A stretch of DNA of 64,000 nt from Phycisphaerae bacterium RAS1. Lineage in GTDB: Bacteria; Planctomycetota; Phycisphaerae; UBA1845; Fen-1342. The notes beneath the pieces were generated by a model. The model saw only the letters and a list, made by a program, of their open reading frames with translations, was not told where the DNA came from and ran no database searches. The position numbers and the translations under genes are program-made. Shown here piece after piece: positions 14,209 through 32,897 of the stretch. Position 1 is the first letter of the stretch. Each line of letters begins with the position of its first letter. The stretch covers positions 558,001-622,000 of the forward strand of contig SMLU01000001.1 of NCBI GenBank assembly GCA_007859745.1. The letters run 5' to 3'.

Positions 14209-15705
14209 CTAGCCGCCGATCGCCGCGACGAACGGATTGATATCGAGGATATCAGCCGCGCCGTCGTTGTTCAGGTCGCCCAGCAGGATATCGCAGGTCG
14301 GGTACGTGGCGGCGTAGCCGGCCGGATCAGCCAGAGCGAGCGTGAAGGCGTTGATGTCGAGGATGTCGACGTTGCCGTCGCAATTCATGTCGCCCGGAGA
14401 GGCCGGACCCTTGCCCGCCATCACGACCGAATCGGCCGTCTTGAAGCGGCCGAGCGACCAGATGCGGTCGATCGGCGGGCCCTTGGCGTCGAAGCGGAAG
14501 TTGTACATGGTGCCGAAACGCAGGGCGTTGGCGTTCGGGTTGCCCGCAAACGTCGTGGTGCTCCAGTCGAGCAGCCCGCCGGCGCCGGCATTGTCGGGCC
14601 AGTCCGTCAGGTCGTAGGGCATTCCGGCGCTGTGGTAGGAGACGTCCTTGAAGCCGATGTTCATCAGCGGGGACGTTCCGACCGGGACGCTCACCTGGCG
14701 CAGCGACGAATCGGAGTTGATGTTGAAGATCGCGATTTCGTAGTGGTACCAGCCGGGCATGCCGCTGATCTGGTTGACGCGGTAGCCGACGCGGAAGCGC
14801 CCGTCGGAAACATCCACATCCTGCAGCACCACGGTGGGATCGACGATACCGACGCCGCCGCCATGGGCGCGCCAGGCGTTGATCGCGGGTTCCTGCCGCG
14901 TGATGGTCCCGGTGAAACCGAGGGCATAGCCGCCGCCCGTGAAGGCGCCGACGTTCAGCCGCTTGTAGGAGGCGTTGTTGTTGTCGTTGTTGGCGGTCGC
15001 GTCGTCGTTCGAGACGTAGTGACCTTCGCCGAAGAAGAGGGCGCCGGGGTTCAGGGCCGGATTGAGGTCGTCGTTGTTGATCTGAATGCGGCCGTCAAGC
15101 GTGCCGCTTCCGGGCGTGGGGTGATTCTGCGGGAAGACGCCCGTGGTCGGGTTGACGACCCACTTCGGACCCAGCAGGCTCTGCGAGCCGTTACGGTCGG
15201 CCGTGTAGGGGTCGGAACAGCCCACGCCGAGGTGATCGCAGCAGCCGCCGCAATAGGGCGTGCAGGAGCCGCACACGCCGCCCTGGAGGGCGCAGAACGA
15301 CCACTTCATCCAACCCTGGCCGAGTTGCTCGAAGCGGCCGGCCTTCAGGCGATAGATGTTTTGCGAAATGACGGGGTGGAAGGGCGTGCCGTCGATCCAC
15401 TGGAGCGGAATCGTGCCGATGTTGCACGACGTGGTTCCGATCGAGTAGGACGTGACGGTGCCCACCGTACCCCACTTGCGCGGGCCGGACATTTCACCGA
15501 CAATGACGTCGGCGCCGGCGGACTGAATGATGCCGACAAACTCGCCTTCCTGGGAGATCAGCTTCTCTTCATTGCTCCAGTTCTCAACCGGAACGGAGCC
15601 GTCCGTCTCATCCGCAGCCTGCGTCGCGGTCGGCGTCGTGTTCGCCGCGGTGAACGCATAGATGAAGAGAGACAGACACGCGGGTGTACACAGCCAGAAT
15701 TTCAT
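14209..15705 (-). CDS. Secreted protein with C-terminal dockerin-type repeats
   Basis: 498 residues from ATG 15705 (MKFWLCTPACLSL), preceded by GGAGG. A signal peptide covers about the first 20-30 residues. The central body is not assigned; it has a Cys-rich patch (CGSCTPYCGGCCDHLGVGC, about residue 180-200) and many aromatic/Asn-rich strands, consistent with an extracellular beta-rich protein. The last 60 residues carry two dockerin-like calcium-binding repeats, GDMNCDGNVDILDINAF and GDLNNDGAADILDINPF. Planctomycetes use such repeats on many secreted proteins without a classical cellulosome. No PEP-CTERM tail follows, so the exosortase in this window is not its obvious processor. Confidence 0.85.
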   Translation of the reverse strand: MKFWLCTPACLSLFIYAFTAANTTPTATQAADETDGSVPVENWSNEEKLISQEGEFVGIIQSAGADVIVGEMSGPRKWGTVGTVTSYSIGTTSCNIGTIPLQWIDGTPFHPVISQNIYRLKAGRFEQLGQGWMKWSFCALQGGVCGSCTPYCGGCCDHLGVGCSDPYTADRNGSQSLLGPKWVVNPTTGVFPQNHPTPGSGTLDGRIQINNDDLNPALNPGALFFGEGHYVSNDDATANNDNNNASYKRLNVGAFTGGGYALGFTGTITRQEPAINAWRAHGGGVGIVDPTVVLQDVDVSDGRFRVGYRVNQISGMPGWYHYEIAIFNINSDSSLRQVSVPVGTSPLMNIGFKDVSYHSAGMPYDLTDWPDNAGAGGLLDWSTTTFAGNPNANALRFGTMYNFRFDAKGPPIDRIWSLGRFKTADSVVMAGKGPASPGDMNCDGNVDILDINAFTLALADPAGYAATYPTCDILLGDLNNDGAADILDINPFVAAIGG

Positions 15706-16049
15706 CCCATTCCTCCAGGGACAAGAGAAAAGATGCATTGTCCAAAGATTAGGTCGCCCATCCCGAGGCGATCCCAGCAGCGGCTCCTTGGCGACGACTA
15801 GTATATCGCGCGGTGATTTCCAGCGGAAGAATAATCTTCACAGAATGTGCGGAGCTTGCAGACGTTTGCCGCGTGCGCGCCCGCCGCCGCACGCAAGGTC
15901 TTATAACTTACAGCGCTTCGCGCTTGCGTATGGACCGTCCGCGTGTTAAAAGCCCGCGGCGCGGGCTGGGCTGGGTATCGTCGCAGAGCGGGCCGTGGGC
16001 CGACGCTCGTCGCTCCCCTGCACCTGCGTGTGCCCTGCCGGAGGAACAC
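15706..16049. other. Divergent intergenic region
   Basis: 344 bp between the minus-strand dockerin gene and the plus-strand histone-like gene. It should hold promoters for both. No strong consensus box, repeat or small gene was recognised. Confidence 0.4.
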
Positions 16050-18707: not shown

Positions 18708-19174
18708 GTCTTCGTCCTTTCAGCGATGCGGTTTTGGCGTTTCGACCGCCCGTACGCCGGGAGTTTTACGCTTTCTTATCGCCGAGGCTGGCCCGGGCGG
18801 CAAGCGGTTCACGCGTTTTCGGACGTGCCGGATTTGGCTTGATGTCGGGCTGGAACGTGAGTATAAGCTGGTGTGCCGGGCTAGGTTTGCGCGTGTCTCG
18901 CGGCGGTGGTGCCCCTACAGGGTGTACCGCGGCCGGCTCCCGAGGCGGAGATTGGCGCGGACCGGAGGACGAGAGTTAACAGCCAGATCGAGTGACTCCA
19001 GGCGAGTCGAGTGCTCTGCGGTGTCCGGCTAGTGCCGCGAGCGATCGGGAAGAAAGCCAAAACAGGCGACGGAGTGCCGACGGACCTGCGGCGCAATTTC
19101 TGCGGCGCGGGCGATGGTCATTTGTCTCCGTTTCCGCCTACACGAGGGCGGATACGGTGCGAGGTTTGCGCACG
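18708..19174. other. 467-bp intergenic region before the polysaccharide locus
   Basis: Divergent gap between pdxH (minus) and the zinc-ribbon gene (plus). It should hold the promoter for the first genes of the polysaccharide locus. No repeat, RNA gene or convincing small gene was recognised; the frames crossing it are Arg-rich shadows. Confidence 0.4.
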
Positions 19175-19696
19175 ATGAACATCCAGGCCTGTCACGAATG
19201 TGGCAAGTCCGCCGCCGTACGGGTTTTACGGGGTTATTCGCACGGCGTCCCCGACTTCCGCGATCTGTGCCTGAGCTGCGCCGACGAGCGTGACCGCGCG
19301 GCGGTGCGCCAGCAACGGCGCGAAACGCAACTTCCCACCAAGGCACTGCTTCTGATGGCCGGATGCATGTTGATGCTGATTGCGCTGAGTTGGGATTTTC
19401 TGAGCCTCGCGACTCGACCGGGTTTCGGTGTCTTTCAGCGGTTGGGGACGGCGCTGGCGCTCGTGCTGGTGCTGCTGGGCGCCGTGTCGCGAACGGACGT
19501 GATCGCCATTATGGGCGCCGCAATGCTTGCGCTTTCCCTCGGCGCAGATGTTTTGGCTACCGACCATGTTCCGGGCATCGGATGGAAGCAACAATTCGTA
19601 TTACTTGTAGGGGTGGGCGCGTGCGGGCTGGCGGTCTGGCGCCCTTGGCGCTTGTCCGCCCGAACGCTGCTGGGCGTCGCTGAACGGACGACGTAA
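19175..19696 (+). CDS. Zinc-ribbon membrane protein, unassigned
   Basis: 173 residues from ATG 19175 (MNIQACHECGKSAAVRV). The N-terminus has two Cys pairs (CHECG and CLSCADE) forming a probable zinc ribbon. Four hydrophobic segments follow (about 66-80, 90-108, 114-130, 140-160), so the ribbon probably faces the cytoplasm. It ends 3 bp before the next gene, suggesting it opens the exopolysaccharide operon. I do not recognise a function. Confidence 0.7.
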   Translation: MNIQACHECGKSAAVRVLRGYSHGVPDFRDLCLSCADERDRAAVRQQRRETQLPTKALLLMAGCMLMLIALSWDFLSLATRPGFGVFQRLGTALALVLVLLGAVSRTDVIAIMGAAMLALSLGADVLATDHVPGIGWKQQFVLLVGVGACGLAVWRPWRLSARTLLGVAERTT

Positions 19697-19699
19697 GTT

Positions 19700-20713
19700 A
19701 TGAGAACCGCCGCGGTTATCCTCGCCGGGACGCACGAATGGCAGCGCGAGCTGTTCGACGCCCTCTGTCCGCGCCCGCTGATGCCGGTCGCGAACCGGGC
19801 GCTGGTCGCCCGCGCTCTCGACTGGGCGCGGGCCGGTGGGATTTGTGAAGCCGTCGTCTGTACCAATCGCTACGCGCCGCTCTTTCGCCGCACGCTAGGC
19901 GCGGGCGATCGGCTGGGCATGCAACTGCTCCACTACCAGGACGTGACGCCGCGCGGCCCGGCGGGGTGTGCGGCGGATGCCGCGCGGCTGATCGACGCGG
20001 ATCGTGTCCTCGTGATTGAGGGCACCGTGCTACCGGTGTGCGACGCGGCGGACGTGCTGTACACGCACGACGCCGAGCGCAATGCGGCGACGGTGGTGAT
20101 TGAAGACACAGACTACGGTTATTCGGCGCCGGCGGGCGTGTTCGTCTTGCAGGCGGCGGCGCTGGAGCGCGTCGGGCAGGCCGGCTACCACGACATCAAG
20201 GAGGGGCTGATTCGCGAGTTGCGCGAGGGCGGGCAGCGTGTCGGTTCGTACCGCGCGGTGGGCCGCGCGTCGCGCGTGCTGGATCGCGAGTCTTACCTGC
20301 ATGCGCAGCAGCCGGCGATTCGCGGCGTGCGGGCGGAACTGGAAGGTTACGATCGCGCCGGTGAAGCGCTGATTCACGAGACGGCCGAGGTGGATGCGTC
20401 GGCGCGTTTTTACGGCCCGGTGATGATCGGCCCCAGAGCGGTCGTCGAGCGGCGCGCCACGCTGATCGGCCCGGTCGTCCTGGGTAGCGGCGCGGTGTGC
20501 CGCGAACAGGCGATCATCGTCCGCACCGTGCTGTGGAGCGGCAGCGAAGTAGGCGCCGCAGCCCACGTGGATCACAGCATTCTGGCGGGCGGTTTCGCCC
20601 TCGCGCCCGAAATGAGCGCCACACACGAGATCTGCGTCAATATGCTGGGCGAGCGGCCGGCATCGGCCGGCGTTCAGAAGAAAGCCGCAACGGCGACGAT
20701 GACAGGAGTGTGA
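19700..20713 (+). CDS. Nucleotidyltransferase-like protein with left-handed beta-helix, degenerate active site
   Basis: 337 residues. The N-terminal half has the sugar-nucleotidyltransferase layout (AAVILAGTHEWQRELFD, CPRPLMPVANRALVARALDWA, VLVIEGTVLPVCDA). However, the nucleotide-binding signature LAGGxGTRL is replaced by LAGTHEWQREL and the usual PKP is PRP, so catalysis is doubtful. From about residue 225 hexapeptide repeats follow (ARFYGPVMIGPRAVVERRATLIGPVVLG). A related hexapeptide block occurs inside the sugar transferase gene at 23091. It is second in the exopolysaccharide operon. It could be a regulator or scaffold, or an active but divergent enzyme. Confidence 0.7.
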   Translation: MRTAAVILAGTHEWQRELFDALCPRPLMPVANRALVARALDWARAGGICEAVVCTNRYAPLFRRTLGAGDRLGMQLLHYQDVTPRGPAGCAADAARLIDADRVLVIEGTVLPVCDAADVLYTHDAERNAATVVIEDTDYGYSAPAGVFVLQAAALERVGQAGYHDIKEGLIRELREGGQRVGSYRAVGRASRVLDRESYLHAQQPAIRGVRAELEGYDRAGEALIHETAEVDASARFYGPVMIGPRAVVERRATLIGPVVLGSGAVCREQAIIVRTVLWSGSEVGAAAHVDHSILAGGFALAPEMSATHEICVNMLGERPASAGVQKKAATATMTGV

Positions 20714-20721
20714 GCACGAGC

Positions 20722-22989
20722 ATGAGTGAATCCGAAGTGCATGACACGACCCAGCCCGTACGAGCGCTGGCGAAGGCCGGCCCGATTGGCCCGGCCGGAG
20801 CGCTGGCTGCGCCGCTCATCATCGACGCGGACGCCGGTGCTGCGCCCTCGACGCCGGTTTCGCTGGCCATGCTGTGGCGCTTCAAGTGGACCATCGCCGG
20901 GACGTTTATGCTGTGTGCGGCGGCGGGGCTGGGCCTGATCTGGACCGCGATCCGCCCGGCCTATTCGGCCAGCGGGGTCATTCACATCAAGCCCGTGCGC
21001 GACGACCTGCTTTCCGGGCGGCAGGACGTCATGCCGATGTATGAGTCCTTCCGCCAGACGCAGGCGAGTTTCGTCACCAACGCGGAAGTGCGCAATGGCG
21101 TCTTGGAAGACAGCGCCGTGAAGGGACTGTCGTGGTTCGCCGCCAGGCCCCTGACCTTCTGGGACCGGCTGATTTCCGCGGACCCGGTCGAGCAGCGCTT
21201 TGATGACGACGTCAACGTGATCGTGCCGCCGGGCAAGCAGTTGATCGAGGTGTCCATCTCGACGCCCTGGCCCGGCGAGGCGGCGGTGCTGGTCAACAAG
21301 ATCCTCGAGAACTACAAGCGCAACTACGAAGATCGCCAGAGCGCCGAGGACAACACCGATGTGCGCGCGCTGGAGCGAGCGGCGGCAGACCTGAAGCGCC
21401 GCATCGAGGCCCGCGCCGATGAGATCAAGGTGGTCCGCAAGGACCTGAACCTGGGCGCCGGTTCGCCGGCCGAGGTCGTCGTCAAGCGCCAGGTCGCGCT
21501 CGATGAACGCCGCGCCGAGCTCTGGACGCTGCGCAAGGAAATCGCGCTGGATGAGAAGCGTCTGGAGCGGGCCAAGGCCCAGCATGCCGCGTCGACGGAC
21601 GCGGGCGACGCGGCGCCCGATCCGGCCGCGGCGGAAAAAGCCGCGTTCGAGCGCAACGCCGAGTGGCGCGGCCTGCGGCGGGAGCTGCAGACGGCGCGCG
21701 ACAACCTGGCCGCCGGCCTGCGGCGCTGGGATGAAGGCCACTACAAGATTCAGTCGCTCAAGAACGAAGTGACGCGCGTCGAGCAGCAGGTCGCGGCGCT
21801 GGAGACTGACCTGCGCGACCGGCTGACGAATGGCCGCGGCGACCCGGACACGGGCGACTTCGCCCTGACCGACCCGCGCGTGATCGAGCTGCGGCTGTCG
21901 CGGCTGCGCGACGAAGAGGCGGTTCTGGCGGGCCTGCTGGATGAAGAGGAAGCCCGCTACGAGAACGCCTCGCGCCTCGCCAGCCGGCTGGTCGAGGTAG
22001 AGCGCGAGGTCGAGGCCGACACGCACGAACTCGACAATCTCGAGAAGCAACTGAACATCCGCGAGATGCGCCGCGCGACCGAGGTGACGGTCGCCATGTC
22101 GACCGCCGTCGCCAAGCCGCCGGTGGACAAGCGCGTCAAGCTCTCGGCGGCGGCGCTTTTCGGGGCGCTCATCGCCGGGCTGGGCGCCGGATTCGTCCGG
22201 CTGCGCTTCAGCGCGACGGTGACGTCGATGCGGGACGTGTCGCGTCCGCTGCAGCAGACGCTGATCGGCTCCGTGCCGCTGCGGCGCGGCGTTTCGGCTG
22301 AAGTGCTGACGAACTGTCCCATTCAGACAGAATCGGTGCGCGTCCTGCGTACCGCGTTTCTGAACCGGCTGAAGCAGGCCGGCTGCTCGGTCGTGCAGTT
22401 CACCAGCGTCGGCCCGCGCACCGGCAAGAGCACACTGGTCGGCATGCTCGGCCGAAGCCTGGCAGCCGCGGGCAAGCGCGTCCTGCTGGTTGACGGCGAC
22501 GTCCGCCGAGGATCGCTCACCGCGGCGTTCCGCGCGGCGGGCACGGCCGGGCTGCTGGACGACCTGAGCGCGCCCAGCCCGACGGTCACGGTGCACTCGA
22601 CCGATACGCCGAACCTGAGCCTGGTGCCCGTCGGCCGGATCGCCAAGCCCGAAGACGCGGAGTTGTTCGCCAACGGGGCGTTCGGGCGGCTGCTGGAGGC
22701 GTGGAAGAAAGCCTATGACGTGGTGCTGGTGGACAGCGCGCCGCTACTGATGGCGTCGGAGTCGGTCATGCTCGCGCAGCGCGTGGATGGCACGATCATG
22801 GTGATCCGCGAGCAGCATTGCCGCCGCCACGGCCTTACGGAAGTGATCGAGCTGCTGGACAGCGCCGGCGGAACTCTGCTCGGAACGGTGTTTGTCGGCT
22901 CCACGACGCCATCGGGCTACGCGTCGTACAACTACTACGGCAGTTACGCTCAGTATGGTCGCTCGGCGTCGACGGACGCGACGGACTGA
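20722..22989 (+). CDS. Polysaccharide co-polymerase / bacterial tyrosine autokinase (Wzz-Wzc type)
   Basis: 755 residues from ATG 20722; a GTG at 20710 overlapping the previous stop is an alternative. A Wzz-type region has transmembrane helices near residues 55-75 and 475-490 and a long coiled-coil periplasmic part between them. The cytoplasmic BY-kinase domain carries Walker A (GPRTGKST, about 564), Walker A' (VLLVDGDVRRG) and Walker B (VVLVDSAP). The C-terminus has a tyrosine cluster (GYASYNYYGSYAQYGRS, about 733-748), the usual autophosphorylation site. It controls chain length and export of the polysaccharide. Confidence 0.92.
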   Translation: MSESEVHDTTQPVRALAKAGPIGPAGALAAPLIIDADAGAAPSTPVSLAMLWRFKWTIAGTFMLCAAAGLGLIWTAIRPAYSASGVIHIKPVRDDLLSGRQDVMPMYESFRQTQASFVTNAEVRNGVLEDSAVKGLSWFAARPLTFWDRLISADPVEQRFDDDVNVIVPPGKQLIEVSISTPWPGEAAVLVNKILENYKRNYEDRQSAEDNTDVRALERAAADLKRRIEARADEIKVVRKDLNLGAGSPAEVVVKRQVALDERRAELWTLRKEIALDEKRLERAKAQHAASTDAGDAAPDPAAAEKAAFERNAEWRGLRRELQTARDNLAAGLRRWDEGHYKIQSLKNEVTRVEQQVAALETDLRDRLTNGRGDPDTGDFALTDPRVIELRLSRLRDEEAVLAGLLDEEEARYENASRLASRLVEVEREVEADTHELDNLEKQLNIREMRRATEVTVAMSTAVAKPPVDKRVKLSAAALFGALIAGLGAGFVRLRFSATVTSMRDVSRPLQQTLIGSVPLRRGVSAEVLTNCPIQTESVRVLRTAFLNRLKQAGCSVVQFTSVGPRTGKSTLVGMLGRSLAAAGKRVLLVDGDVRRGSLTAAFRAAGTAGLLDDLSAPSPTVTVHSTDTPNLSLVPVGRIAKPEDAELFANGAFGRLLEAWKKAYDVVLVDSAPLLMASESVMLAQRVDGTIMVIREQHCRRHGLTEVIELLDSAGGTLLGTVFVGSTTPSGYASYNYYGSYAQYGRSASTDATD

Positions 22990-23090
22990 CCGGGCGCGGG
23001 CCGCGGTGCGGCGGGCGCCTGGCCCGCTCCGAAGTCGAACGGGACGAGCCGGAAGCCCGCCCCGGCGAAGTGAAGTAAGGGACCGAGGCG

Positions 23091-24917
23091 ATGGACATCA
23101 TCCCGGTGCTGATCGATTCGCGGCCGACGTGCCTGGCCGGCGCATCGCTCTTGGCGGCGCCGATCGGCGCGGGCACGCTCTACGCGCTGGTGCGCGAGGC
23201 GTTGCAGACGCTGCGGCGCGCTCCGCTGATCATCTCCAACGAGCCGATGGGCGATGAGTATCTTGCGTCGCTGCGCCGCGCCGCGCCGGATGCCGCGATC
23301 CACCACGTCCGCGACCTGGCGGGGTTAATCGAGACCTACGAGCCCTCGGACTGCCTGCTGCTGGTCAATCCCAGCGTCATCGCCGCCGCCGATGACTGTT
23401 TCGAGCCGCTGCTCGACCGGCAGGTGGACCATCGGCTGGCCAATCACATCGTGCTGCCGGACGCTCACACGAGCCACGCGCTTGAGCGCGTCGTGCTGGA
23501 CAGCGAAAACCAGGTCACGCGGATCGACCGCGTCTATCCGGGCGTGACCGACATTCGCACGCGCGACGTTTTGGCCTCGCTGGTTCCGATCCACGCGCTG
23601 CGCGGTCTCTCCTGGAGCGAACGCCCGCTCACGCTGCCGGGGCTGCGGGCCGAGCTGGTCACTTACGGGCTGCCCAGCCGCGACATCCCCGTGTCTCACG
23701 CCGCCCCGCGGCTTTCAACCGCTGACGGGCTGCTGCACCTCAATGAGCAGGTGTTGGCGCATGGCGGCAACGACCCACCCGAGGGATTCCGCGAACTGAA
23801 TGAGAACATCCTGGTCGACGCCGACGTCTCCATTCATCCCACGGCGCGGCTGCACGGACCGCTGGTCCTGCATCGCGGCGTAACCGTTCAGGAGGACGCC
23901 GTCCTGTTCGGTCCGGCGGTGCTGTGCGCCGGGGCCGAAGTCGGCCGCGACGCGCTGGTGGGCCACAGCGTCGTGCTGCCGGGAATGAAAGTGCCGCCGC
24001 ACAGCGCCACGCTCTACCAGGTCGGCCTGGCCGACGCGCACGGCGCCGAACAGGCGTCCACGGAGATCGAACTGCCCCTGCTACGGCGGGGCCGCGCAGC
24101 GCAGCAGCGACCCAGCGCGCGGAGCGCCGGGCTCTATCCAGCGTTGAAACGCGTGGTCGATTTTTCGGTGGCGCTTGTCGGACTGGCGCTTCTGCTCCCG
24201 CTGATGCTGGTCGTGGCCGTCGTGATCAAGCTGACTTCCCGCGGGCCGGTTTTCTTCGGCCACGGGCGTGAGGGGCGCGGCGGGCGCGTCTTCTGCTGCT
24301 GGAAATTCCGCACGATGGTGGACGGGGCGCACCAGATGCAGCGCCAGCTCTATGACGTCAGCCACGTGGACGGTCCGCAGTTCAAGATCGCCGCCGACCC
24401 GCGCGTCACGACGCTTGGCAAAATCCTGCGGGCTTCGAACATCGACGAGCTGCCGCAGCTCTTCAACGTGCTGCGCGGCGAGATGAGCCTGATCGGTCCG
24501 CGGCCGTCGCCGTTCCGCGAGAACCAGATCTGCGTCCCCTGGCGCGAGGCGCGCTTGTCGGTCCGGCCGGGCATCACCGGGTTGTGGCAGATCTGCCGGC
24601 ATGACCGCGACGCCGGCGATTTCCACCAGTGGATCTACTACGACACGCTCTACGTCCGGCACCTGTCCTTTGCCGCGGATGTGAAGATACTGCTGGCCAC
24701 GGTGCTCACGCTCGGCGGCCGCTTCAGCGTGCCGCTGCGCTTTATCATCTCGGCCAAACGAACGCGCGAATCGGAGACGCCGCTCCAGCTCCCCATCGAG
24801 GAAGTGGTGCGGCAGATTGAATCGCAGGAGCCGCAGCGCCCGGCAACCGGCGATCGCCGCGGCGCCGCGCCCGCCGCGCGACCGTCAAATCCGCTGATTG
24901 CCGCGCGGGGAGCCTGA
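23091..24917 (+). CDS. Polyprenyl-phosphate sugar transferase with N-terminal hexapeptide module
   Basis: 608 residues. The first 250 residues resemble a degenerate nucleotidyltransferase-like domain, and about 240-320 form hexapeptide repeats ([28 protein letters not shown]). The C-terminal domain (about 345-555) is a bacterial sugar transferase of the WcaJ/WbaP kind: one hydrophobic helix ([20 protein letters not shown]), then [44 protein letters not shown] and [10 protein letters not shown]. It would load the first sugar-phosphate onto undecaprenyl phosphate. The N-terminal fusion is unusual and parallels the separate protein at 19700. Confidence 0.9.
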
Positions 24918-25847
24918 ATGCCGACGCTCGCCGCCGGTTCGCGGGATTCGACGCGGTCTTCCGGCGTGCCGCGGATCGCCGTGATCGGCGCGATGGCGCT
25001 CTGGAGCTTTTGGCCCACCATCTCCGAATTGCTTGATTTCTGGAGCACCAACGAGGATTACTCGGTCGGCCTGCTCGTGCCGATCGTCGCGGCGTACTTC
25101 GCCTGGCGGCAGCGCGCGGAACTTGCCGGGCTCGATTCGCGGCCGAACGTCATCGGGCTGGGCCTGCTGCTGGCGGGGCAGGCGGCGCGGCTCTTTGCGG
25201 TTTACTACGGCTATGCGTCGGTCGAGCGCTACGCCCTTCTACTCTCCATTTCCGGGCTGATTCTCTGGCTGGGCGGATGGAAGCGCTGGCGGCGCCTGGC
25301 GTGGATTCAGGCCTTCGCGCTACTGATGGTGCCCCTGCCCAACAGCGTCCACAACGCCGTCACCGCCCCGCTGCAGCGCTGGGCCACGGCCCTGGCCGCC
25401 GCCGGCCTCGAGATGATGGGCTTTTTTGTCGCGCGCGAGGGAAACCTGCTGAGCCTGAACGAGCAGGCCAGCGTGATGGTCGCCGAAGCCTGCAACGGCC
25501 TGCGCATGCTGACGGCGTTCGTGTTCACCTCGGCGGTGCTGTGCTTCATGGTCAGCCGGCCGGTCTGGCAGAAGGCGCTGATGCTGGCGTCGAGCGTGCC
25601 GATCGCGATTCTGGTGAACGCGGCCCGCGTGCTGCTCACGAGCGTCGCCGTGTACTACTTCAAAAACCCGCGCATCGAGTCGAACGTGCACGACGTTGGC
25701 GGCTACCTGATGATTCCGGCGGCCCTGCTGCTGATGCTGGGCGAGCTGCGGCTGTTCCAGTTGATCGTCGAGCCGCCGCCCGCCGCCGCTGCACCGCGCC
25801 GCCACCGGCCGGCGCGAGTCAATTCGGCTGGAGGAGCGACCGCATGA
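24918..25847 (+). CDS. Exosortase (EpsH/Xrt family)
   Basis: 309 residues, with about eight transmembrane helices. The catalytic triad of the exosortase/archaeosortase family is present: Cys192 in EACNGLR, Arg237 in NAARVLL and His258 in NVHDVGG. Exosortases process PEP-CTERM-type proteins at the membrane, and their genes usually sit in exopolysaccharide loci, as here. The start codon directly follows the stop of the sugar transferase, and the stop overlaps the EpsI-like start. No PEP-CTERM protein was seen in this window. Confidence 0.94.
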   Translation: MPTLAAGSRDSTRSSGVPRIAVIGAMALWSFWPTISELLDFWSTNEDYSVGLLVPIVAAYFAWRQRAELAGLDSRPNVIGLGLLLAGQAARLFAVYYGYASVERYALLLSISGLILWLGGWKRWRRLAWIQAFALLMVPLPNSVHNAVTAPLQRWATALAAAGLEMMGFFVAREGNLLSLNEQASVMVAEACNGLRMLTAFVFTSAVLCFMVSRPVWQKALMLASSVPIAILVNAARVLLTSVAVYYFKNPRIESNVHDVGGYLMIPAALLLMLGELRLFQLIVEPPPAAAAPRRHRPARVNSAGGATA

Positions 25848-26542
25848 AACGCGCCTGGGCGCCCGCGGCGATCGCTTCACTCGTGCTGCTGGCCGGCGGA
25901 TGGCTGCATCGCGACCTGCAGGGTCGCGTCGAGCGCGCCCTGGGTCGCGTCGCGTCGCTTCGTGCGCCGCTGGACGGCCTGCCGTTTGAACTGGGCGAGT
26001 GGCGCGCCGAGGACATTCCCCTTGATCCGCGCGTGCTCGAAGTCGCCAACTTCGACGACGCCTGGGTCAGCCGCGTCTACCGCCGGGCGCGCGACGGCGC
26101 CGCGGTCACGCTCTTCGTCGGCTACGTCGGCCGGGCGCGGGCCCACCTGGGCCATCGACCGGACATCTGCATGGTCGCCCACGGCTGGGAGCAGCGCCTC
26201 TCGCAACCCCTCGACGTCGCCACCAGCGCCGGACCGGCCGCCTGCACGCTGCTCGAATTCTCCCCGCCGCGCGATTTCGGCAACCCCATGACCGTGATGG
26301 CGGCATACCTGGTGAATGGTCGATATCTTAAGGGCGATTCCGCCCTGGAGGGCTGGAATTCGCGCGCGCCGGACCTGGGCGGTTCGTCGGCCGCCGCGTA
26401 CATCGGTCGCGTGCAGGCGGCGGTCGTCGGCACGGGCGATCTCAAGCAGGATCAGGCGACGTTGTCCGAGCTGCTTGGACTGGTGCTTCCGAAAGTCGCC
26501 GGCATGATGCCATACTGGAATGACGACTCAAAAGGCCGCTGA
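25844..26542 (+). CDS. EpsI-family protein (DUF3485) partner of exosortase
   Basis: 232 residues from ATG 25844, overlapping the exosortase stop by 4 bp. An N-terminal hydrophobic segment is followed by LPFELGEWRAEDIPLDPRVLEV, VTLFVGYVGRARAHLGHRPDICMVAHGWE and a late NGRYL segment, the layout of EpsI/DUF3485 proteins. In other bacteria the domain is either fused to or encoded next to the exosortase; its role is not settled. The 3' end overlaps the next gene by 23 bp. Confidence 0.88.
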   Translation: MKRAWAPAAIASLVLLAGGWLHRDLQGRVERALGRVASLRAPLDGLPFELGEWRAEDIPLDPRVLEVANFDDAWVSRVYRRARDGAAVTLFVGYVGRARAHLGHRPDICMVAHGWEQRLSQPLDVATSAGPAACTLLEFSPPRDFGNPMTVMAAYLVNGRYLKGDSALEGWNSRAPDLGGSSAAAYIGRVQAAVVGTGDLKQDQATLSELLGLVLPKVAGMMPYWNDDSKGR

Positions 26543-27338
26543 ACTCGCGCCGTCCGCCGCAAGGGCCGCCCGCCGGGGCGGATACGCCTACGTCGGCGGC
26601 GTGCGGATTGACGCGGTCGATATGCGCGGGGCCCTGGAGCACATCGAACGGCTGGTCAGCGCGGGACGGTCGGCGTATGTCGTCACGCCCAACGTGGACC
26701 ATATCATTCGCGCCCAAACCGACCCGCACTACGCGCAGATTGTGCGCGGCGCCGATCTGGTGCTCGCCGATGGTCAGCCGCTGGTGTGGGCGTCGAAGCT
26801 GCGCGGCACGCCGCTGCCGGGCCGCGTGGCGGGATCGGACCTGTTCCCGCTGCTGTGCCAGCGGGCGGCGGCCCGCGGTTGGCGCGTTTTTTTCATGGGC
26901 GGGGCGCCGGGGGCCGCGGATTCGGCGAAGGACGTTTTGACGAAACGCCATCCGGGGCTCGATGTGTGCGGTACGTACTGCCCGCCGATGGGATTCGAAC
27001 AGGACGCGCGTGAATTGCGTAAGGCGATTGAGGCGGTGCGCGCCGCCGGCGCGCAGATCGTCCTCGTCGGGCTTGGCTCACCCAAGCAGGAGCGCTGGAT
27101 CGTCGAGCACCAGGCGGAATATGGACCGGCCGTGAGCATCGGCATCGGCGTCAGTTTCAGTTTCGTCGCCGGCGATGTCCGCCGGGCGCCGCGCTGGATG
27201 CAGCGTTGCGGGCTGGAATGGCTGCACCGCCTGCTGCAGGAACCGGGACGGCTCTGGAAGCGCTACCTGGTGAACGGCTGGCGATTTCTGCCGATCTTGC
27301 TCCGCGATCTGATGGGCCGATCGAACCCACGCGCGTGA
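26520..27338 (+). CDS. WecG/TagA/CpsF-family glycosyltransferase
   Basis: 272 residues. The family motifs are clear: YVVTPNVDHIIRAQTDP, VLADGQPLVWASKLRGTPLPGRVAGSDL (shown by LADGQPLVWASKL), FFMGGAPGAADSAKDVL, QIVLVGLGSPKQERWI and the C-terminal RAPRWMQRCGLEWLHRLLQEP. The enzyme adds a sugar (often ManNAc or a relative) to a lipid-linked acceptor. The start overlaps the EpsI-like gene, so coupling is likely. Confidence 0.93.
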   Translation: MTTQKAAELAPSAARAARRGGYAYVGGVRIDAVDMRGALEHIERLVSAGRSAYVVTPNVDHIIRAQTDPHYAQIVRGADLVLADGQPLVWASKLRGTPLPGRVAGSDLFPLLCQRAAARGWRVFFMGGAPGAADSAKDVLTKRHPGLDVCGTYCPPMGFEQDARELRKAIEAVRAAGAQIVLVGLGSPKQERWIVEHQAEYGPAVSIGIGVSFSFVAGDVRRAPRWMQRCGLEWLHRLLQEPGRLWKRYLVNGWRFLPILLRDLMGRSNPRA

Positions 27339-32805: not shown

Positions 32806-32897
32806 GCGGCGCGGCAGCGCCGCCAGCCCATTATGGCGTCTGACCTGCCATACCTCTCTTTTTGTCTTCTCTGTGCCTCTGTGCCTCTGTGGTTTCC
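32742..32897. repeat. CACAGAGGCACAGAG inverted repeat, copy a
   Basis: Left arm 32742-32770 pairs with right arm 32868-32897. The element spans the end of the GT2 gene and the upstream region of the cytidylyltransferase gene. Related copies lie at 33728-33885, 34937-35080, 36645-36782 and a half copy at 40892-41034. Confidence 0.85.

Follow-up and report, generated by a model that had tools for sequence, protein, structure and literature searches.

A predicted pseudo-nucleotidyltransferase and its divergent paralogue fused to a phosphoglycosyl transferase in a polysaccharide locus of Phycisphaerae bacterium RAS1

Introduction

Post-translational control of the first step in the synthesis of Wzx/Wzy polysaccharides is described in PMC12802240 as incompletely understood. 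The genome of Phycisphaerae bacterium RAS1 (genome G000 of our set) bears on this question: in one locus a module resembling a nucleotidyltransferase (NTase) joined to a hexapeptide helix is encoded twice, as a stand-alone protein (P0001, gene at 19700) and at the amino terminus of a phosphoglycosyl transferase (PGT; P0002, gene at 23091). Are these modules related, are they still enzymes and, if they are not, what might they do for the transferase? The window referred to here is the whole stretch of 64,000 nucleotides that was analysed, contig C1 (SMLU01000001.1), 558001–622000, and coordinates are positions within it.

Results

Predicted fold and active site of the stand-alone protein

P0001, a protein of 337 residues encoded at 19700..20713 on the plus strand, was characterised by Pfam search, homologue alignment, AlphaFold 2 (AF2) modelling and structure matching. 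The Pfam family NTP_transferase (PF00483) matches it with an E-value of 1.1e-5 and 25.6 bits, the cut-off being 21.2. The AF2 model has a mean predicted local distance difference test (pLDDT) value of 83.3, and its best solved match is the Arabidopsis GDP-mannose pyrophosphorylase (GMPP) 7x8j, with a Z-score of 29.5 and 306 residues aligned at 2.6 Å. P0001 is thus modelled with the GMPP fold, in which an NTase part (residues 1–220; 19700..20359, from Pfam and profile alignments), its catalytic loops lost, is followed by a left-handed beta-helix (LbH) of hexapeptide type. An earlier note on the window had proposed that this protein retains the helix, and Pfam and the model place it at residues about 223–304 (20366..20611).

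The catalytic positions were located by alignment to the solved uridylyltransferase 8x7s and to L155, the sole active NTase with a recognisable LbH to emerge from the GMPP search, which has both the catalytic motif and the helix. In these alignments the P0001 segment LAGTHEWQREL is aligned with the GGxGTR loop; the catalytic Lys is matched by Arg25, the first metal-binding Asp (GD) by Thr109 (20024..20026) and the second (DIG/DTG) by Arg192 (20273..20275). We take these positions in active NTases to be the nucleotide loop, the catalytic lysine and the two aspartates that bind metal. GGxGTR, which the same note had reported missing, is indeed absent, LAGTHEW (residues 8–14; 19721..19741) standing at the place of the LAGGxGTR of active enzymes. 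As a side observation, the exchange of the second metal Asp for Arg in P0001 (residues 185–204, window 20252–20311) is common to yeast eIF2B epsilon in alignments.

Residue counts were made on 75 stand-alone and 80 fused distinct open reading frames (ORFs) with profile scores >100 bits, each set being cut to 68 rows at 90% identity; the divergent PGT modules found beside exosortase fusions (see below) score <100 bits and are excluded from the fused set. GG.GTR occurs in none of the 75 distinct stand-alone-type modules; one stand-alone ORF and one fused ORF do contain GxGTR, but as stray strings outside the loop. Position 109 is Asp in 0/68 rows (Thr 32, Ser 14, Ala 12, Gly 5, others 5), as is position 192 (Arg 58, others 10), while position 25, that of the catalytic lysine, is Arg in 56/68 and Lys in 2/68. 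Six exosortase-fused members of the family (L131, L133–L135, L138 and L139) are among the 68 rows and so share the loss. Judged by its sequences, the P0001 family appears to be a family of catalytically dead pseudoenzymes.

The family is not merely decaying, because it has invariant residues of its own: Pro84, Gly86, Ala88, Gly89, Asp165, Lys167 and Glu168 are kept in 68/68 rows, and Trp279 in 66/68. The LAGxHxW-type pattern, found in 52/75 homologues, is looser, with His12 in 46/68 rows and Trp14 in 56/68. The PxGxAG stretch (Pro84–Gly89) lies on what is presumably the base-binding loop of active enzymes, and a nucleotide or nucleotide sugar may therefore still be bound.

The fused transferase has an intact dyad and an eroded module

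P0002, of 608 residues, is encoded at 23091..24917 (+). Pfam recognises Bac_transf (PF02397) at residues 353–540 (E 2.8e-59), with weak hexapeptide matches in the N-terminal 340 residues. The mean pLDDT of the AF2 model is 79.7; most of the N-terminal module lies at about 90, with a dip to 63–78 at residues 101–160. Residues 3–326 match the GMPP family with a Z-score of 21.6 (292 residues aligned, 4.3 Å), and residues 1–312 are modelled as a GMPP fold, made up of an NTase part (residues 1–232; 23091..23786, from profile–profile comparison and the model) and an LbH part (residues 233–312; 23787..24026, from Pfam, BLASTP and the model). Residues 337–545 match the transferase WbaP, 8t53, with a Z-score of 20.2 (163 aligned, 2.1 Å, 37% identical). 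The monotopic PGT catalytic domain, residues 353–540 (24147..24710), has a hydrophobic segment from about residue 351, and its catalytic dyad Asp452–Glu453 (24444..24449) is intact, the alignment showing the dyad kept in 64/68 fused rows, with three gapped and one other.

The module itself is another matter. Asp9, Pro24, Glu132, Arg147, Asp198, Gly274 and Pro275 are invariant in 68/68 fused rows, a set that differs from that of the stand-alone module. Matches to known families (Pfam, NCBIfam) are confined to the LbH, and neither alignment nor profile comparison recognised any catalytic motif of the NTase fold. The fused module is far more eroded than its stand-alone counterpart. A Pfam search of P0002 returned no PF13727 domain of unknown function (DUF) at E<=1, and the chain has no hydrophobic segment before residue 351 and therefore no bundle of four transmembrane helices (4-TM). 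Large PGTs carry both of these parts, and in P0002 the module takes their place.

The two modules are divergent paralogues

BLASTP aligns P0001 with P0002 in the LbH region only (27% identity over 98 residues, E 9e-7). Profiles were built from homologues in 61 genomes, RAS1 and 60 relatives, A1 comprising 27 fused PGTs and A2 comprising 26 stand-alone proteins. Comparison of the two aligns stand-alone and fused modules over 274 columns with a probability of 99.6% and an E-value of 3.7e-24; with the helix cut off, the NTase parts alone align over 179 columns with a probability of 78% and an E-value of 1.8e-5. Four control pairs all gave probabilities <1%, with E-values of 0.25, 0.4 and 0.56 for those including an NTase part and 0.079 for PGT against LbH. 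Strands and helices follow in the same order in both AF2 models, both modules match GMPPs (Z-scores 29.5 and 21.6), and the structures matched by each include human GMPPA/GMPPB, eIF2B and the Arabidopsis VTC1–KJC2 complex. A chance resemblance between hexapeptide repeats was considered and rejected on the profile homology, which includes the NTase part, and on the match of the P0002 model over residues 3–326. We conclude that the two modules are divergent paralogues and not recent copies, so that the related module ascribed to the 23091 transferase in the earlier note is borne out.

The pair is conserved

Among the 61 genomes the fused set retains 42 of 69 listed rows, the 27 dropped being 24 stand-alone LbH proteins and three other genes (in G015, G018 and G023); the stand-alone set has 44 rows with E <= 1e-27. 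The 42 fused PGTs lie in 34 genomes, and 41 are preceded by a stand-alone gene on their own strand, adjoining in 11 cases and separated in 30 by one gene-sized gap of 2.2–3.4 kb. The unpaired PGT ends at a contig edge, and a stand-alone copy in the same genome lies on a different contig. In two further genomes only the stand-alone gene is present.

In a wider scan of sequenced genomes, of which the best 80 of 175 relatives were used, the helix is present on 79/80 PGT ORFs, the remaining ORF starting at base 1 of its contig, and the NTase profile scores >50 bits in 67/80. The stand-alone gene is present in 59/61 of the loci with at least 5 kb upstream, and a BY kinase lies between the pair in 47/64 loci with both genes. 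These best 80 come mostly from Phycisphaerae and other Planctomycetota; by title, there are also Acidobacteria (L070, L091, L107, L111, L118, L121), Vicinamibacteria (L093) and Gemmatimonadaceae (L083). The titles of L113 (Alphaproteobacteria) and L139 (Pelotomaculum) we doubt; their loci are planctomycete-like and in our opinion the bins are probably mislabelled.

A search of the phylum with profile A2 (E<=1e-20) gave 23 rows in 22/288 genomes. Twelve rows fall below 1e-30, namely the window, eight exosortase fusions (L183–L189, L191), the stand-alone L182 and the PGT-fused L190 and L192; among the 11 weaker rows are nine that showed no LbH, which we regard as ordinary NTases. A third profile, A3, matched in 168/294 genomes of the phylum, mostly through the LbH only, and we did not take this figure as the frequency of the system. 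A test of evolutionary distances over 36 loci gave a partial correlation of 0.35 between stand-alone protein and fused module, reached in 0/500 permutations, and a similar value, 0.38, for the fused module with the PGT domain of the same protein.

Module fusions and the exosortase link

In six loci a stand-alone-type module and an exosortase form one ORF of 659–702 residues with the module N-terminal (L131:3224-5230; L133:2884-4986; L134:2879-4876; L135:2679-4655; L138:3113-5122; L139:3048-5153). With the eight further fusions L183–L189 and L191 there are 14 such ORFs, two of them identical; 13 are distinct, among them one pair with 90% identity. The motif D[IL]KE is present in 14/14, and GxGTR in the first 120 residues in 0/14. 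The gene order module–exosortase, BY kinase, helix-bearing PGT was found in three of five regions examined (L206–L208). In the PGTs of these three regions and of the six fusion loci the profile recognises the helix only, the NTase part being too divergent. In the remaining two of the five regions an ORF, L204:6568-8676 or L205:7592-9520 (minus strand), carries the stand-alone-type module directly on a PGT, and no second module, BY kinase or exosortase was detected in the 16–17 kb region around either. A single dead-enzyme module that occurs by itself, on an exosortase or on a PGT is the pattern expected of a shared adaptor.

Exosortase-family proteins occur in 31/33 relatives carrying the fused PGT. 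When coordinates were compared by eye, an exosortase lay within 10 kb of the pair in at least 7/33 relatives, besides the window itself; this is a lower bound because many contigs are short. Among the best 80 of 175 loci a single-sequence search found an exosortase in 12, six of them the fusions, and saw none in the Acidobacteria loci. Ten ORFs that follow the PGT in nine other loci were searched with Pfam, and none proved to be an exosortase; two were OPX export proteins, one was an acyltransferase and seven matched nothing. The link of the pair to exosortases is weak in this respect, for adjacency is not general. The RAS1 genome has both exosortases and PEP-CTERM proteins, with three exosortase-family places, one below the cut-off, and 58 listed matches to a short PEP-CTERM model of 24 positions, of which 54 exceed its cut-off; this model also matches in 7/14 control genomes, over the cut-off in two.

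Gene order and neighbours

The two module genes belong to a run on the plus strand. Between them, at 20722..22989 (start approximate), lies the gene for a Wzz/BY-kinase-type chain-length tyrosine kinase (TIGR01007, 108.7 bits, cut-off 108.05). Directly after the P0002 gene come an exosortase (24918..25847; PF09721, 1.1e-57), an EpsI/DUF3485 exosortase-associated protein (25817..26542, start approximate; Pfam, NCBIfam) and a WecG/TagA/CpsF-family glycosyltransferase (26520..27338; Pfam). A WecG-family domain was also seen at the end of a 656-residue ORF in L070:9634-11601. Upstream, a gene at 18992–19696 (+) ends 3 bases before 19700; by eye its product seems to have a Cys-containing head and membrane helices, and it gave no Pfam match and no NCBIfam match over its cut-off. 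Further away, inspection by eye suggests two dockerin-like repeats at the C-terminal end of the protein encoded at 14209–15738 on the minus strand.

Discussion

Known systems to which the pair can be compared

Among the closest known systems are GMPPA and the Arabidopsis KONJAC protein KJC2 (8yre), the latter being, we assume, a non-catalytic subunit working beside a partner. P0001 and P0002 appear to share with them the NTase–LbH fold, the loss of catalysis and work beside a partner. In contrast to GMPPA, the partner suggested here is a PGT and not an active pyrophosphorylase, and a second copy is fused to it. PF00483 has five places in the RAS1 genome: a ManC-like protein (L141), a glucose-1-phosphate cytidylyltransferase-like protein (L142), one GlmU-like by eye (L143), L144 and P0001. 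The epsilon and gamma subunits of eIF2B likewise contain a dead NTase with an LbH, and P0001 gives a profile match to eIF2B epsilon of 3.3e-27; the eIF2B-epsilon LbH family PF25084 matches it at 6.3e-5, below its cut-off. Partners and process differ. eIF2B is a translation regulator with a guanine-exchange domain, and Pfam found no such domain here.

P0002 shares the PGT domain and the Asp–Glu dyad with the large monotopic PGTs WbaP, WcaJ and EpsZ, but its N-terminal part is a predicted pseudo-NTase module where WbaP-type enzymes have a 4-TM bundle and a PF13727 DUF. Bifunctional monotopic PGTs (Bi-PGTs), in which an extra domain is fused to the PGT core, are described in PMC10942596. P0002 likewise has an extra domain on its core, but this domain is apparently inactive as an enzyme and is matched by a conserved paralogue that stands alone. 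Finally, like the exosortase/EpsH clusters of XrtA type, the locus combines an exosortase, an EpsI-like protein, a BY kinase and a PGT; it differs in that the PGT is not of EpsB_2 type (145 bits, cut-off 393) and in that elsewhere the exosortase itself carries the pseudo-NTase module (the 13 distinct ORFs).

A proposed role and its rivals

The earlier note had suggested that the pair regulates or scaffolds the start of polysaccharide assembly. Its pseudoenzyme, as far as sequence can tell, the shared fold, the fused copy and the operon context all stand, and to its picture we add that the fused module is far more eroded and that the stand-alone family has invariant residues that decay alone would not leave. 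The regulatory or scaffold role is the most economical reading, because the pairing is conserved (41/42) and the module is fused to PGTs and to exosortases. Computation yields the modelled folds, the homology, the loss of catalytic residues, the intact PGT dyad, the pairing and the fusions; ligand, mixed assembly and control of the PGT we infer.

On balance, and with modest confidence, we favour a mechanism in which a paired pseudo-NTase, acting as regulator or scaffold, stands in for the 4-TM/DUF part usual in large PGTs and serves as a gate on the start of the polysaccharide. Like GMPPA and GMPPB, the modules of P0001 and P0002 would associate in a mixed complex, here in the cytoplasm, that keeps the PGT oligomeric. 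A nucleotide or nucleotide sugar might bind the old substrate pocket, the first step catalysed by the PGT responding, so that initiation would read the supply of nucleotide sugar through the mixed pseudo-NTase oligomer. The lineage would have exchanged the DUF for a dead, GMPPA-like module and added a free partner. Each ingredient has a counterpart in the literature. In PMC10942596 the DUF of WbaP is reported to be implicated in dimer stability and in binding of uridine nucleotides, and UMP is put forward as an allosteric regulator; according to PMC12802240, EpsZ is stimulated by a small partner, which modelling suggests promotes the EpsZ dimer; and GMPPA is described in PMC11228364 as non-catalytic, binding GDP-mannose and inhibiting GMPPB.

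Three observations weigh against this mechanism. Compared by hhalign with the active NTase L155, a single sequence, the NTase part of the fused module is not recognisably similar (probability 0.5%), and its pocket may therefore be gone. The invariant residues could serve contacts only. In the distance test, moreover, the stand-alone protein tracks the BY kinase equally well (partial correlation 0.38, 36 loci), so the two modules are not singled out and the test therefore supports co-inheritance of the operon, not specific contact.

In a rival explanation the modules only oligomerise the PGT, or elsewhere the exosortase, or position it at the membrane, and sense no ligand. We consider this unlikely. 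The heavy erosion of the fused NTase part agrees with it, as do the multi-subunit complexes formed by the fold relatives GMPPA/GMPPB and eIF2B, and P0002 is missing the DUF that PMC10942596 presents as dimerising in large PGTs; yet the PxGxAG stretch of the stand-alone protein and a DxKE motif invariant in 68/68 rows are more than a mere scaffold seems to need. Strong conservation of polar residues where catalytic ones were lost might instead point to some other catalytic activity, with an active site built from His12/Trp14, Asp165/Lys167/Glu168 and Arg192. We think this quite improbable, since His12, Trp14 and Arg192 are kept in only 46, 56 and 58 of the 68 rows and since the LbH is short, as in GMPP-type structures, unlike that of acyltransferases, whose left-handed helix is longer.

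That P0001 is an active, if atypical, sugar nucleotidyltransferase feeding the PGT is suggested by its fold, its place in the operon and its profile matches, which except for that to PF00483 lie below curated cut-offs. The P-loop, both metal aspartates and the catalytic-lysine position are all changed, and the cluster has another NTase, at 32833, which has GGxGTR and scores 292 bits for glucose-1-phosphate cytidylyltransferase (cut-off 300). With GG.GTR in 0/75 modules and a metal Asp in 0/68 rows, we rejected this reading as very improbable. We give still less credence to a likeness limited to the common hexapeptide helix, with the NTase part of the PGT unrelated. BLASTP does align just the LbH, and the profile probability for the NTase parts is 78%, not near 100%, but their E-value of 1.8e-5 compares with at least 0.25 for the control pairs that include an NTase part, the P0002 model matches NTase–LbH chains over residues 3–326, and the order of secondary-structure elements is the same.

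Significance

The ingredients of the gating mechanism, pseudo-GMPP regulators and bifunctional PGTs, are known, while their combination appears to be new: in the open-access literature we found no description of an NTase-like module fused to a PGT or an exosortase, although the subscription literature may list one. A bolder and more doubtful possibility is that the module acts as a common cytoplasmic adaptor tying together both ends of an exosortase system, with one copy on or beside the exosortase, a second on the initiating PGT and the BY kinase between; a hetero-oligomer of these copies might then monitor the supply of nucleotide sugar and allow PEP-CTERM proteins to be processed only while the matching glycan is produced. 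The presence of exosortases among polysaccharide genes would, if this is true, have an explanation. Through the exosortase fusions, glycan initiation and sorting by exosortases become linked physically and directly, in a way that can be tested. For the first step of polysaccharide assembly, the pair provides a conserved and genetically linked candidate for control, in which an apparently dead nucleotide-sugar enzyme rides on the initiating transferase and is accompanied by a free partner.

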